The translations under genes and the position numbers were made by a program. A stretch of DNA of 53,632 nucleotides, taken from NCBI GenBank assembly GCA_017860345.1, contig JAFNAV010000027.1, positions 1 to 53,632 of the forward strand, read 5' to 3'. This document shows, one piece after another, positions 8,622 to 20,164 of this stretch. Every line of letters starts with the position of its first letter. Position 1 is the stretch's first letter. A model generated the notes under the pieces. That model made no database searches. It saw only the letters and a program-made list of their open reading frames with translations, and was not told the origin of the DNA. Source of the DNA: Bacteroidota bacterium (GTDB lineage Bacteria > Bacteroidota > Bacteroidia > Bacteroidales > Paludibacteraceae).

Positions 8622-9809
8622 ATGAAAAAAACACATTTATTCATTATCCTTTCGTTTTTGGGTGCTTCAGTAAGTGCCAAAACGGTGCAAACTACCGATT
8701 ATATGGGATGGGCTGTGAAAATAGCCGACTCGGAGATGAAGCATAATCCGGAATTATGGATGGCCGATTTTGTAAAAACTCCCAAATGGGATTACACTCA
8801 GGGTTTAGTGGCTAATGCTATGTTACAGGTTTTCAATGCTACAAATGATTCGGTTTATTATAAATATGTAAAAACTTTTGCTGATTTCTTTATTCAGGAA
8901 AACGGTGAGATATTAACGTACAAAAAATCAGACTATAATATTGATAAACTCAATGGTGGACTTTTTCTGTATGACTTGTTTGCCAGGACCAAAGATCGTA
9001 AGTATCTGAATGCCCTCAATATTTTGCGCGAACAACTTTATACGCACCCTCGTGTAAGCGAAGGCGCTTTCTGGCACAAAAAGATATATCCGCATCAGGT
9101 ATGGCTTGATGGTTTGTACATGGGGTCGCCTTTCTACATCCGTTACGGGGTTATTTTTGATGTCCCCGAAATATTTAGCGATGTAACCAAACAATTTATT
9201 GTGGCCGATAAACATACGCTCGATCCTAAGACGGGTTTGAATTACCACGGCTGGGACGAAAGTAAAACTCAGAAATGGGCTAATCCCGTAACCGGACAAT
9301 CGCCTAACTTCTGGAGTCGCAGTATGGGATGGTATATGATGGCGCTGGTTGATGTCCTTGAATATCTGCCTCTTGACCATCCTGACAGAGCTAAACTTTT
9401 GAAAATACTGAATCGGTTATCTGCTTCATTAGTTAAATATCAGGACAAAAAAACGGGTATGTGGTATCAGGTAACTAATTTGCCGAAACGCTCTGGAAAC
9501 TATCTTGAATCTACCGGTACGGCTATGTTTGCCTACGCTTTTGCCAAAGGCGTTAACAACGGTTTTTTACCTGCAAAATATAAGAAATATGCTGTAAGCG
9601 CCTTTGACGGACTTGTAAAAAACAGTACCGTGCAAAATGCTGATGGCACTTACTCTATTACCAAAGCTTGTAGCGTGGCTGGGTTAGGAGGTACGCCTTA
9701 TCGCGATGGCTCTTTTGAGTATTATATCAATGAGCCGGTCAGAAGTGACGATCCCAAGGTTATTGGTCCATTTATTATGGCCGCTCTTGAACTCGTTAAA
9801 ATGAAATAG
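8622..9809 (+). CDS. GH105 unsaturated rhamnogalacturonyl/glucuronyl hydrolase (secreted)
   Basis: This 395-residue enzyme with a signal peptide (about 1-19, ending SVSA) belongs to glycoside hydrolase family 105 (YteR/YesR-like). It hydrolyses the terminal unsaturated galacturonic acid left on oligosaccharides by pectate or rhamnogalacturonan lyases, by hydration of the double bond. The (alpha/alpha)6 barrel signature is visible: MADFVKTPKWDYTQGLV, HKKIYPHQVWLDGLYMG with the likely catalytic Asp at residue 163, NFWSRSMGWYMMALVDVL, and TGTAMFAYAFAKGV. It is followed by a terminator and two further pectin-active esterase genes, which supports the substrate. Periplasmic location is inferred from the signal peptide. 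Confidence 0.9.
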   Translation: MKKTHLFIILSFLGASVSAKTVQTTDYMGWAVKIADSEMKHNPELWMADFVKTPKWDYTQGLVANAMLQVFNATNDSVYYKYVKTFADFFIQENGEILTYKKSDYNIDKLNGGLFLYDLFARTKDRKYLNALNILREQLYTHPRVSEGAFWHKKIYPHQVWLDGLYMGSPFYIRYGVIFDVPEIFSDVTKQFIVADKHTLDPKTGLNYHGWDESKTQKWANPVTGQSPNFWSRSMGWYMMALVDVLEYLPLDHPDRAKLLKILNRLSASLVKYQDKKTGMWYQVTNLPKRSGNYLESTGTAMFAYAFAKGVNNGFLPAKYKKYAVSAFDGLVKNSTVQNADGTYSITKACSVAGLGGTPYRDGSFEYYINEPVRSDDPKVIGPFIMAALELVKMK

Positions 9810-9840
9810 TCGAATATCTTTATATTTTCAAAAAATTACA

Positions 9841-9886
9841 GCGTGCCCCGAAAAGTCATATTTTCAGTGGCACGCATTATTTTTTC
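9841..9886 (+). terminator. Terminator after the GH105 gene
   Basis: GCGTGCC (9841-9847) pairs with GGCACGC (9869-9875), followed by ATTATTTTTT. A weak promoter-like TTTCTTTG sits at 9891-9898, just before the pectinesterase start, so the esterases may have their own promoter. Confidence 0.75.
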
Positions 9887-9899
9887 TTGATTTCTTTGT

Positions 9900-10946
9900 A
9901 TGATGTCCATGAACAGAAGTTTAATTTCGCTAATAGCGTTTATCACCGTATTTCAGATTGCAGTATCGCAAACCGCCAATTCGTCCGTAACATTACGTAA
10001 TTCTCTGCTGAATGACTCGGTTACTTTTACCGTGGCTAAAGATGGTAGCGGTAACTTCACCAGCATACAGGCGGCTATCAATGCTGTGCCTGATTATAGA
10101 AAGAAGCGAACAGTTATATTAATCAAAAACGGAACTTATGTTGAAAAAATAATTGTTCCGGAGTCCAAGCAGTTATTGACGATAATTGGCGAGGATGCTG
10201 AAAAAACAATTATTTCGTACGGCGACTGGGCGCAGAAAAAAACAATTCTGGGCGAAGATACCGGCACTTCGGGCTCGGCTACTTTTTATGTTTTTGCCAA
10301 AGACTTTTGCGCGGTCAATATCACTTTCAAAAATTCAGCTGGCCCTATCGGGCAGGCTGTGGCGGCACATGTTAGTGCCGATAGGTCTGTGTTTTTCCAT
10401 TGTCGTTTTTTGGGTTTTCAGGATACATTATATACTTATGCAGAAAATAGCAGACAGTATTACAAAAATTGCTATATCGAAGGTACTACCGACTTTATTT
10501 TCGGGTGGTCAACTGCGGTTTTTGACCAATGCGAGATACATAGTTTAGCCGATTCATATATTACTGCGGCTTCTACATCTCAAAATTCTGAATTTGGTTA
10601 CCTTTTTTATCGATGTAAACTTACGGCAGCACCAACAGTAACTAAAGTATATTTAGGACGTCCCTGGCGCATTTATGCTAAAACGGTTTTTCGTGAATGT
10701 GAGCTTGGTAACCATATACTTCCCGAAGGATGGCACAATTGGGGTAAAGCTGAAGCCGAAAAAACTTCCTTTTATGCCGAATATCTCAATTCTGGTTCCG
10801 GAGCAGGTACTTCGCAACGTGTAAAGTGGGCACATCAACTGTATAAAATACAAGCTGAACGCTGGACGGTAGAGCATGTTTTAAAGGGAGATGATGGTTG
10901 GAATCCTCAATTGAACGGTATAAATCAGACTATTAAATCAAAATGA
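9900..10946 (+). CDS. Pectinesterase (CE8), secreted
   Basis: The 348-residue protein is a carbohydrate esterase family 8 pectin methylesterase, which removes methyl esters from homogalacturonan and leaves free galacturonate and methanol. Seen: a signal peptide (about 1-23); the FTSIQAAINAVP block that opens the right-handed beta-helix; FQDTLYTY with Asp at residue 175; GTTDFIFG with Asp at residue 198 (the acid/base and nucleophile pair); and YLGRPWR with the conserved Arg and Trp. Several in-frame ATGs open the gene (9900, 9903, 9909); the first is used, though the third is possible. The stop is 1 nt before the next start, so it is tightly coupled to the CE12 esterase. Confidence 0.92.
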   Translation: MMSMNRSLISLIAFITVFQIAVSQTANSSVTLRNSLLNDSVTFTVAKDGSGNFTSIQAAINAVPDYRKKRTVILIKNGTYVEKIIVPESKQLLTIIGEDAEKTIISYGDWAQKKTILGEDTGTSGSATFYVFAKDFCAVNITFKNSAGPIGQAVAAHVSADRSVFFHCRFLGFQDTLYTYAENSRQYYKNCYIEGTTDFIFGWSTAVFDQCEIHSLADSYITAASTSQNSEFGYLFYRCKLTAAPTVTKVYLGRPWRIYAKTVFRECELGNHILPEGWHNWGKAEAEKTSFYAEYLNSGSGAGTSQRVKWAHQLYKIQAERWTVEHVLKGDDGWNPQLNGINQTIKSK

Positions 10947-10947
10947 T

Positions 10948-11790
10948 ATGAAACGAGCAACGAAAAACAATGGTTATCGTACAAGATTGTACAAAATTTT
11001 TACGGCTACAGCTGTTTTGCTTCTTCTGCTTGTAGCTGCCAAACCTAAACCGGTAAAGGTGTTTCTGGTTGGCGACTCTACTATGGCCGATAAAGCTCCG
11101 ATAGACGAAACTCCCGAACGTGGCTGGGGGATGGTGTTTCCTTCGTTCTTTAATGATAATGTGATTATTGAGAATCATGCCCGGAATGGTAGAAGCACTA
11201 AAACATTTATCTCGGAAGGTCGCTGGGATTTTTTGATAAACAGAGTAGGGAAGGGTGATTACGTTTTTATTCAGTTCGGTCACAACGATGAAGTGAGTAC
11301 CAAAAAGGCTTACGCCACTCCCGAAGAGTTCGATAAAAATCTACGAAAAATGGTGATTGATGTTAAAGCAAAAGGCGCAAATCCGGTGCTGTGTACTTCT
11401 ATAGCCCGCCGAAAATTCGATTCGATTGGCAATACGGTCGACACACACCCTGTATATCCTGAAATAATGAAAAAGGTAGCATCCGAACTAAATGTTCCGC
11501 TTATTGACATGAAAGCCGAAAGCGACAAAGTGTTGAAAAAATATGGAGTGGAAGCTTCTGCAAGATTATTTATGAACATAGAACCGGGCATATGGAAGGC
11601 TGTACCCGAAGGTAAAAAAGATGATACCCATCTGGTTGATGCCGGTGCTATGGAAATGGCTGCGTTAGCTGCCAACGGTATCAGGCAACTTAGGATAAAG
11701 CCTTTGAATAAATATCTTGTAAAACCATCCCAAATAAAAATGAAATATACGATTCCTGTAGAGGGTATTGAATCAGTGAAACCTCAGTAA
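10948..11790 (+). CDS. Rhamnogalacturonan acetylesterase (CE12, SGNH hydrolase)
   Basis: This 280-residue SGNH/GDSL hydrolase is most like carbohydrate esterase family 12 (RhgT/YesT type), which removes acetyl groups from rhamnogalacturonan. Seen: a membrane or signal segment (about 20-31), GDSTMADK with catalytic Ser at residue 44, the NGRSTKTF block, FIQFGHND with the oxyanion Asn, and DDTHLVDAGA with Asp226 and His228 of the triad. The Ser/His/Asp pattern is intact. The N-terminal hydrophobic stretch suggests export to the periplasm. It starts 1 nt after the CE8 stop and so shares its mRNA. No further gene follows in the unit before the DUF1015 promoter at 11944. Confidence 0.9.
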   Translation: MKRATKNNGYRTRLYKIFTATAVLLLLLVAAKPKPVKVFLVGDSTMADKAPIDETPERGWGMVFPSFFNDNVIIENHARNGRSTKTFISEGRWDFLINRVGKGDYVFIQFGHNDEVSTKKAYATPEEFDKNLRKMVIDVKAKGANPVLCTSIARRKFDSIGNTVDTHPVYPEIMKKVASELNVPLIDMKAESDKVLKKYGVEASARLFMNIEPGIWKAVPEGKKDDTHLVDAGAMEMAALAANGIRQLRIKPLNKYLVKPSQIKMKYTIPVEGIESVKPQ

Positions 11791-16381: not shown

Positions 16382-16879
16382 ATGTCAAAGATTTCGATTA
16401 TCGTTGCTGTTGCAGAAAATTACGCTATTGGCAAATCAAACAAACTACTGTGGCATTTACCTGCCGATCTTAAACATTTCAAACAATTGACTACAGGCCA
16501 CGCTGTAGTAATGGGAAAAAGAACTTTTGAGAGTCTGCCAAACGGTCCGTTACCCAACCGTAAAAACATTGTACTTACCTCCATTCCTTCCGAAGGTGTT
16601 ACCAAAGAATATTTCGAGGCTGATTCGCTCGAAGATGCTATAGAACTTTGCGAACATGAAAACGAAATATTTATCATCGGTGGAAGTACTGTTTATAAAC
16701 AGAGCATCGACAAAGCTGACGCCATGTACATCACCTGGGTACATAGCGAGTTTGTAGCCGATGCTTATTTCCCGGAAGTGGATTTTTCTAAGTGGAACGA
16801 AGTTTCGAGAGAAGACCATCCCGCCGATGAAAAAAATCCGTATTCTTACACATTCTCATATTACGAGAAGAAAAAGTAA
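16382..16879 (+). CDS. folA: Dihydrofolate reductase
   Basis: The 165-residue enzyme reduces dihydrofolate to tetrahydrofolate with NADPH, closing the cycle with ThyA just upstream. The standard chain is present: MSKISIIVAVAENYAIGK at the start, WHLPADLKHFKQLT with the folate-contacting Asp in the LPADLKHFK loop, VVMGKRTFESL, the IFIIGGSTVYKQ nucleotide-binding Gly-Gly block, and YITWVHSEFVADAYFPE near the C-terminus. It ends before a terminator at 16912-16948. The candidate promoter overlaps the thyA terminator. Confidence 0.97.
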   Translation: MSKISIIVAVAENYAIGKSNKLLWHLPADLKHFKQLTTGHAVVMGKRTFESLPNGPLPNRKNIVLTSIPSEGVTKEYFEADSLEDAIELCEHENEIFIIGGSTVYKQSIDKADAMYITWVHSEFVADAYFPEVDFSKWNEVSREDHPADEKNPYSYTFSYYEKKK

Positions 16880-16983: not shown

Positions 16984-17015
16984 TTTGCTTATAATACTAA
17001 AATGAATTATCTTTG
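16984..17015 (+). promoter_or_regulatory. Canonical Bacteroidota promoter of asnA
   Basis: TTTG (16984-16987) and TATCTTTG (17008-17015) are separated by 20 nt, which matches the family consensus well. The ATG at 17045 is 29 nt downstream. Confidence 0.65.
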
Positions 17016-17044: not shown

Positions 17045-17985
17045 ATGAGCTATCTTATAAAACCCAAAGATTACAAACCCTTACTAAACCTGCAGCAAAC
17101 TGAACTTGGAATAACCCGGATTAAAGAGTTTTTTCAGTCCAATCTTTCTGCCGAACTCAGACTGCGACGCGTTACTGCTCCTTTATTTGTGTTGAGAGGC
17201 ACTGGTATCAACGACGATTTGAATGGAACTGAAAGAGCTGTTAATTTTCCTATCAAGGACATGAATGAAGTCAGAGCTGAGGTGGTACATTCTTTAGCCA
17301 AATGGAAACGGGTTACGCTGGCCGATTACAATATTGAAAATGGTTACGGAATATATACCGACATGAATGCCATTCGTGCCGACGAAGAATTAGGTAATCT
17401 TCATTCGCTATACGTGGATCAATGGGATTGGGAACGTGTAATGACAGCCAATGAACGCAATATAGATTTTCTTAAAACCATAGTTAGGAAAATTTATGCT
17501 ACGCTCCTGCGTACTGAATATCTGGTTTCGGAAACATTTCCTGAGATAAAACCAATTTTACCCCAGGAAATTACATTTATTCATGCTGAGGAACTCAGGC
17601 AGCTTTATCCTGACCTGACTCCTAAAGAGCGTGAAACTGAATTTGCAAAAAAACATAAGGCCATATTTATTATTGGCATAGGGGGGCTGCTTGGCAATGG
17701 TGAAAAACATGATGGCCGGGCACCCGACTATGATGATTGGTCAACGATTGGTGAAAATGGATTAGCCGGCCTTAACGGCGATAAGGTAAGGAGGAAAGGC
17801 TTGAAATGTACTTCCATAAAAGATTGATGACCGACACGCTGCCTCTGTCGGTTGGTGGTGGCATCGGGCAGTCGCGTCTTTGCATGTTTTTACTACGCAA
17901 AGCTCATGTTGGTGAAATTCAGGCAAGTATTTGGCCCGATGACATGAAGGAGCAGTGCAGAAAACTGAACATTCACTTAATTTAA
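17045..17985 (+). pseudogene. asnA: Aspartate-ammonia ligase (asnA) broken by internal deletion and frameshift
   Basis: AsnA makes asparagine from aspartate, ammonia and ATP; the family is usually about 330-345 residues. Residues 1-246 in the starting frame are a normal AsnA N-terminal part (LQQTELGITRIKEFFQ, VDQWDWERV, IIGIGGLLGNGEKHDGRAPDYDDWSTIGENG, GLNGD). After base 17782 the frame changes. The starting frame runs 14 wrong residues to TGA at 17825, while another frame continues with [49 protein letters not shown] and ends HLI at 17985. The two parts total about 312 residues, so about 33 residues are missing, including the SSMGIRV segment that binds substrate in known AsnA. A deletion of about 100 nt (length 1 mod 3) explains both effects. 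The promoter is intact. An assembly error is the alternative. Confidence 0.85.
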
Positions 17986-18128: not shown

Positions 18129-18722
18129 ATGAATATAGACTTTCAAAAATCGGGTGGACTCGTTCCTGCCATAATACAGGATGAGCTTACATCTAAAGTG
18201 CTGATGCTTGGATTTATGAATGAAGAGGCTTTGGCAAAAACTCAGGAAACCGGACAGGTTACGTTTTTTAGCAGAACCAAAAACCGACTTTGGACCAAAG
18301 GGGAGGAGAGTGGTAATTTTCTGAATGTTGTATCTATTGTGCCGGACTGCGACATGGATACGCTCCTGATTAAGGTTCATCCGGTAGGTCCGGTATGCCA
18401 CACCGGTGCCGATACATGCTGGAATGAAAAAAATGAAGGTGATTTTGCTTTTCTGAACTTTTTGCAGAAATTTATTCAAAAGCGATATCAGGAAATGCCC
18501 GAAGGATCGTACACAACATCGCTATTCCAAAAGGGTATTAACAGAATGGCTCAGAAAGTTGGCGAAGAGGCGGTGGAAACTGTGATTGAGGCCACAAATG
18601 GTACTGAGGAGGGTTTTTTGTACGAAGCGTCAGATTTAGTTTATCACCTGATTGTACTGTTAACATCCAAAGGATATTCGCTGGATGATTTGGGTCGTGA
18701 GCTTAAAAAAAGACATAAATAA
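18129..18722 (+). CDS. hisI: Bifunctional phosphoribosyl-AMP cyclohydrolase / phosphoribosyl-ATP pyrophosphatase
   Basis: The 197-residue fusion (HisIE) catalyses the second and third steps of histidine biosynthesis. The N-terminal HisI domain (about 1-105) shows LMLGFMNEEALAKTQETGQVTFFSRTK, WTKGEESGN and the metal-binding DCDMDTLL and CHTGADTCW. The C-terminal HisE domain (about 110-197) shows GSYTTSLFQKG and KVGEEAVETVIEATNG with the metal-binding acidic helix. Length and order are as usual in Bacteroidota. It is not in a his operon here: upstream is broken asnA, downstream is an FtsE-like ATPase at 30 nt. Co-transcription with ftsE is likely. Confidence 0.96.
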   Translation: MNIDFQKSGGLVPAIIQDELTSKVLMLGFMNEEALAKTQETGQVTFFSRTKNRLWTKGEESGNFLNVVSIVPDCDMDTLLIKVHPVGPVCHTGADTCWNEKNEGDFAFLNFLQKFIQKRYQEMPEGSYTTSLFQKGINRMAQKVGEEAVETVIEATNGTEEGFLYEASDLVYHLIVLLTSKGYSLDDLGRELKKRHK

Positions 18723-19864: not shown

Positions 19865-20164
19865 CTATTTCTTAGCAGCTTCAGCTTTTTTTTCTTTACA
19901 GCATTCTTTTTTCTGACCATCAGCTTTATTGCATTCCTTGCCTTCAGCTTTTTTGTCTTTACAACAAGCTTTACCCTCAGCTTTTTTGTCTTTGCAGCAT
20001 GCTTTGTCATCAGCCTTTTTTTCTTTACAACAAGCTTTATCTTCAGCTTTTTTTTCGCATTTAGCTTCTGTTTTTGGTTTGTCAACTTTAGGAGTTTGTC
20101 CTATGGCTACGGTTGCTGTTGCGAAAACTGCAATCAGCGACAGAATAAAAATTCTTGTTTTCAT
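19865..20164 (-). CDS. Secreted Cys/Lys-rich repeat peptide
   Basis: This 99-residue protein has a clear signal peptide (MKTRIFILSLIAVFATATVAIGQ, about 1-22). The mature part is almost only Lys, Ala, Glu, Asp and Cys, arranged in imperfect 11-residue units of the form EKKAEDKACCK: about four close copies, then degenerate ones ending KKECCKEKKAEAAKK. Cys appear as CC pairs, with single Cys at the edges. No domain is recognised. The start ATG (20162-20164) and signal peptide argue that it is a real gene and not a shadow; the plus-strand ORF through the same repeats is the shadow. Possible roles are metal or thiol chemistry in the periplasm, or a cross-linked surface peptide; both are inference. 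Confidence 0.75.
   Translation of the reverse strand: MKTRIFILSLIAVFATATVAIGQTPKVDKPKTEAKCEKKAEDKACCKEKKADDKACCKDKKAEGKACCKDKKAEGKECNKADGQKKECCKEKKAEAAKK
19880..20070. repeat. Imperfect 33-bp tandem repeats coding the CC/Lys units
   Basis: On the plus strand, the words TTTACAACAAGC, TTTGCAGCATGC and TTTACAGCATTC recur about every 33 nt together with CAGCTTTTTT or CAGCCTTTTTT. The repeats carry the 11-residue units of the minus-strand peptide. The copies are close enough to be prone to slippage or recombination. Confidence 0.7.

Follow-up and report, generated by a model that had tools for sequence, protein, structure and literature searches.

In Escherichia coli, asparagine can be made by the aspartate--ammonia ligase AsnA (11AS/12AS), which belongs to a protein family described by TIGR00669 and PF03590. 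One report (PMC3854871) states that the main chain of L249 in this enzyme hydrogen-bonds the AMP ribose, and that AsnB enzymes can use glutamine or ammonia. When bacterial genomes evolve with two redundant asparagine synthetases, losing either asnA or asnB is an ordinary event. The locus described here lies in a window of 53,632 nucleotides, the whole stretch of DNA that was analysed (C3:1-53632), from a Paludibacter-like (Bacteroidales) draft genome of 3.27 Mb in 113 contigs that is 86% complete; among named records, its nearest asnA matches come for the most part from metagenome-assembled genomes that carry the label Paludibacter or Bacteroidales. Like E. coli AsnA, the window asnA matches the family, with both of its pieces in order and on one strand, but it differs from that family in lacking 32 codons and one base, so that the frame is broken. 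With a probability of about 0.8, a single, recent and simple 97-nt deletion inactivated the only detected asnA of this bacterium, and its loss is tolerated through asnB.

The 5' piece of asnA (17045..17782, + strand) comprises codons 1 to 246 and is at most 88% identical to same-genus relatives over these residues. The 3' piece (17785..17985, + strand) comprises codons 280 to 345, i.e., 66 residues, and the stop codon in a different frame, and is 84% identical to a full-length relative over query residues 278 to 345. The junction lies at 17782..17783 (no strand assigned), where both alignment and spacing indicate that 97 nt present in the relatives are missing. Beyond the junction, the frame of the 5' piece continues for 14 out-of-frame residues to a stop codon at 17825-17827 (tail 17783..17827, + strand), and the open reading frame starting with the ATG at 17045 therefore spans 17045-17827 and specifies a 260-residue product. 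The spacing between the two conserved blocks was compared in 29 named relatives (L038-L066), one of which (L049) ends too soon for measurement. It was 99 nt in 26 of the 28 measurable relatives, 98 nt in L043, which carries a downstream frameshift of its own, and 96 nt in L064, versus 2 nt in the window, which means that 97 nt (32 codons plus 1 nt) are missing and that the frame is lost.

An earlier note on this DNA had described a frame-breaking loss of some 100 nt from within asnA, with 246 and 66 residues preserved in different frames, about 33 residues missing and a join near 17782, and had proposed an alignment to full-length AsnA of relatives; that alignment confirmed this geometry and every one of these numbers. 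The NCBIfam model TIGR00669 (330 positions) gave the same picture, with the 5' piece matching model positions 11-236 and the 3' piece 269-328, leaving 32 positions uncovered. Neither the 260-residue open reading frame (262.6 bits) nor the 66-residue piece (72.5 bits) reached the cut-off of 292.8 bits, and the intact relative L039 scored 394.9 bits. Divided between two frames and short of 97 nt, the window asnA does not form the single open frame of an AsnA gene, and as assembled it has the attributes of a pseudogene, namely clear homology and a disabling lesion, while the 86%-complete genome offers no intact copy.

The deletion removes residues 247 to 278 and part of residue 279. Since residue 246 aligns with E. 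coli Asp235, the missing stretch begins at E. coli position 236, and according to the alignment it includes the position of Leu249. Eleven columns within residues 247-279 were invariant in 24 homologues (W250, L254, E259, S261, S262, M263, G264, R266, V267, Q275 and L276); thus the window copy lacks the L249 equivalent as well as the invariant E, SSMG and R residues of this AsnA segment. In the AlphaFold model of the intact relative L039, which has a mean pLDDT of 77 (approximately 90 in the missing part and below 50 at 44-82 and 109-123), the missing part corresponds to a strand (256-266), a helix (269-278) and most of another strand (244-251). The broken gene would accordingly specify only a 260-residue fragment in which one helix, two strands and some of the AMP-binding site are missing. 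Because the invariant columns, the L249 position and the predicted core strands and helix are all missing, the truncated protein should be inactive, and a working enzyme from this gene is very unlikely. The view of the earlier note that a substrate-binding segment was removed is supported in that a ligand-binding segment is missing.

The rest of the locus displayed no sign of decay. A Bacteroidota-type -7 promoter element, TATCTTTG, is located upstream of asnA (17008..17015, + strand), with TTTG at 16984-16987, 20 nt before it. The -7 element, taken by itself, occurred in the 110 nt preceding asnA in 28 of 28 relatives, whereas three control stretches contained it in 1, 2 and 2 of the 28. The full two-part promoter pattern was found upstream of asnA in only 2 of 28 relatives, and its single occurrence in the window, versus 1.26 expected by chance, is not significant by itself. 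The promoter, which had been noted as intact, is thus in place with respect to its -7 element. The window protein matches all of the 161 residues that do not vary among 26 same-genus relatives, including those downstream of the lesion; these 26 were retained out of 29 relatives after removal of L009, which is frameshifted, and of L030 and L031, which belong to other families of the order. As several intact relatives also score zero, this count speaks for an absence of relaxation in the window copy and not for unusual constraint. The mean dN between the window and its relatives (0.141) was similar to that among the relatives (0.140), and dS between the window and the eight closest relatives listed yielded no value due to saturation. 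Zero changes at 377 nonsynonymous sites would place the neutral divergence since the loss at roughly 0.008 per site or less (3/377). Judged from the sequence, the loss of asnA would be very recent, or else the lesion would be an assembly error. The unchanged invariant residues and dN agree with the earlier view of a recent event. That nothing else has decayed would be expected of a very recent deletion, but also of an artefact in an intact gene.

The conservation of the 5' part and the presence of the promoter element could also be explained if the 260-residue fragment had been retained in a new function without catalysis, such as regulating another protein or acting on it as a dominant-negative partner, instead of being a fresh pseudogene. 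Recency already accounts for the conservation of the 5' part, however, and the fragment lacks strands of the predicted fold. Moreover, among 47 other genus genomes searched, 35 had an asnA match, one of which was cut short, and the same truncation was found in none of the 34 in which asnA could be read at that place. Such a role is therefore regarded as extremely improbable.

It is also conceivable that the cells have an intact asnA and that the contig skips 97 nt through an error in assembly or consensus. The undecayed state of the rest of asnA and the fragmented, 86%-complete source genome are compatible with such an error, but several features of the junction speak against it. In the 29 relatives, the positions corresponding to the two breakpoints share only 0 to 2 nt (mean 0.83 against a background of 0.69), and exact words found less than 20 nt away from both breakpoints do not exceed 7 nt; the relatives serve here as a proxy for the lost bases of the window species. 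With breakpoints sharing so few nucleotides, a repeat-driven collapse has no visible cause, and both repeat-mediated deletion and repeat-mediated collapse were rejected on this basis. The retained flanks in the window share no word longer than 5 nt, but this comparison does not bear on a collapse, which leaves a single copy of the repeat. Furthermore, a 121-nt stretch over the junction matches a single place in the genome, the window contains no N, and the neighbouring genes thyA, folA and hisIE match their counterparts in relatives along 90% or more of their length. The unique junction, the absence of breakpoint repeats and of N, and the unsplit neighbours favour a true deletion, and an assembly error is considered unlikely.

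A deletion carried by only part of the population, with the consensus following one allele, would likewise leave a sequence without decay, and very young mutations are often polymorphic. The contigs yielded no second, intact allele, and this possibility is judged improbable. We infer that the cells themselves, and not just the assembled sequence, carry the deletion; it is probably real and represents the ordinary loss of a redundant isozyme.

The gene order around the lesion is OmpA/PD40 protein, thyA, folA, asnA, hisIE and ABC ATPase, in which thyA and folA were named by eye. Both genes flanking asnA are open and syntenic: among the 29 named relatives, 18 of 18 matches to folA (16382..16879, + strand) and 17 of 17 matches to hisIE (18129..18722, + strand; Pfam PRA-CH and PRA-PH) cover at least 90% of the length. 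The same held for 17 of 17 matches to thyA, 12 of 18 to the OmpA-like open reading frame and 10 of 18 to the ABC ATPase. The window asnA occupies a folA-asnA-hisIE place that it shares with 14 of the 29 relatives, in which all three genes lie within the fetched stretch; several of the other stretches end early. A Pfam scan of thirty other open reading frames in the window left two without a match, and no family split over neighbouring open reading frames was noticed by eye among these thirty. Elsewhere in the window, positions 8622-11790 encode a pectinesterase flanked in the list of genes by a GH88 family protein and a GDSL lipase-like protein, a run that may be a cluster for pectin degradation, and a 99-residue open reading frame at 19865-20164 (- strand) has a signal-peptide-like start (by eye), repeated Lys/Cys-rich units and no NCBIfam match.

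With a full-length relative as the query (E ≤ 10), no second asnA was detected in the 86%-complete genome, and only the two pieces described above matched. The alternative raised in the earlier note, that the window gene is a decayed duplicate of a second, intact asnA, consequently found no support and was rejected, since only one copy was detected in the draft genome.

A search of the genome for asnB, which the earlier note had also proposed, identified an intact gene that encodes a 557-residue protein starting with MCGIV. It matches NF006949 over model positions 1-554 of 554 with 936.6 bits, versus a cut-off of 499, and the start methionine is directly followed by a cysteine, the catalytic residue of AsnB enzymes; the gene therefore has the length, score and N-terminus of an AsnB gene. 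It adjoins an open reading frame that resembles gltD by eye. An intact asparaginyl-tRNA synthetase (AsnRS) is also present (623.9 bits, over the cut-off). No gatA match was found in the 86%-complete genome, and none of the 22 genus genomes covered by this search, the present one included, passed the gatA cut-off, with six giving weaker matches. Of the fallbacks proposed earlier for asparagine supply, AsnB stands as a possible one, and the Asp-tRNA(Asn) amidotransferase route was rejected, given the absence of a gatA match in this incomplete genome and the presence of AsnRS. The further claim that ammonia-dependent asparagine synthesis has been lost was overstated, because asnB is intact and AsnB enzymes can use ammonia. 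With asnB intact, asparagine auxotrophy is not predicted for this organism. Loss of asnA would be tolerated because the intact asnB would make asparagine and the ordinary AsnRS would charge tRNA-Asn; that AsnB covers the need in this way is our inference from gene content.

Across 48 genus genomes, the present one included and many of them incomplete, asnA was found in 36 and asnB in 40, the latter counted at E ≤ 1e-100 for the asnB type of the window genome. Both genes were present in 32 of the 48 (with the broken window copy counted) and neither in the available sequence of four (G006, G061, G070 and G019), indicating that the presence and absence calls are noisy or that another route exists; in G006, a different gene scores above the cut-off of the asparagine-synthase model TIGR01536. 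Among the 36 genomes with asnA, the gene was unbroken to residue 344-345 in 33, cut at residue 196 by a contig edge in one (G071), and broken in two, one of them the window copy. The second broken gene, in Paludibacter sp. isolate ppb03 (G022; L009/L043), has a frameshift at about residue 319 and hence an incorrect C-terminus in a frame of 339 codons; this may be a real shift or a sequencing error. Of 80 named loci, 79 have an open frame of 335 codons or more, the exception (L049) running off its contig; as the frameshifted L043 is among the 79, this threshold does not prove an intact C-terminus.

A hisIE locus was obtained from 10 of the 12 genomes without asnA. In five of these loci (L150, L151, L152, L153 and L155), folA is separated from hisIE by 163-331 nt that contain no asnA match; folA was not seen in the other five, where three stretches end early and two (L154 and L157) do not. 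In a small hisIE tree (591 columns, support weak in places), the five genomes with folA next to hisIE fell in at least two places, with G063 beside the asnA-bearing G016 (97/96) and with G070, G009, G007 and G005 together (86/82); the tree tool counted no independent losses. Taken together, the gene counts and these loci make asnA look dispensable in parts of the genus. Among the results examined from the open-access literature, none dealt with a loss of asnA in this genus.

In conclusion, annotators should not credit this genome with AsnA, and the deletion leaves the knowledge of asparagine synthesis unchanged; its value is that of a neat illustration of how the loss of a redundant enzyme begins. 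The same end state, in which one of the two asparagine synthetases is missing, occurs elsewhere in the genus, where the available sequence of 8 of 48 genomes contains asnB alone and that of 4 of 48 asnA alone. The window differs from these clean absences in displaying an early stage of the process, probably a fresh deletion within a gene that is otherwise preserved.
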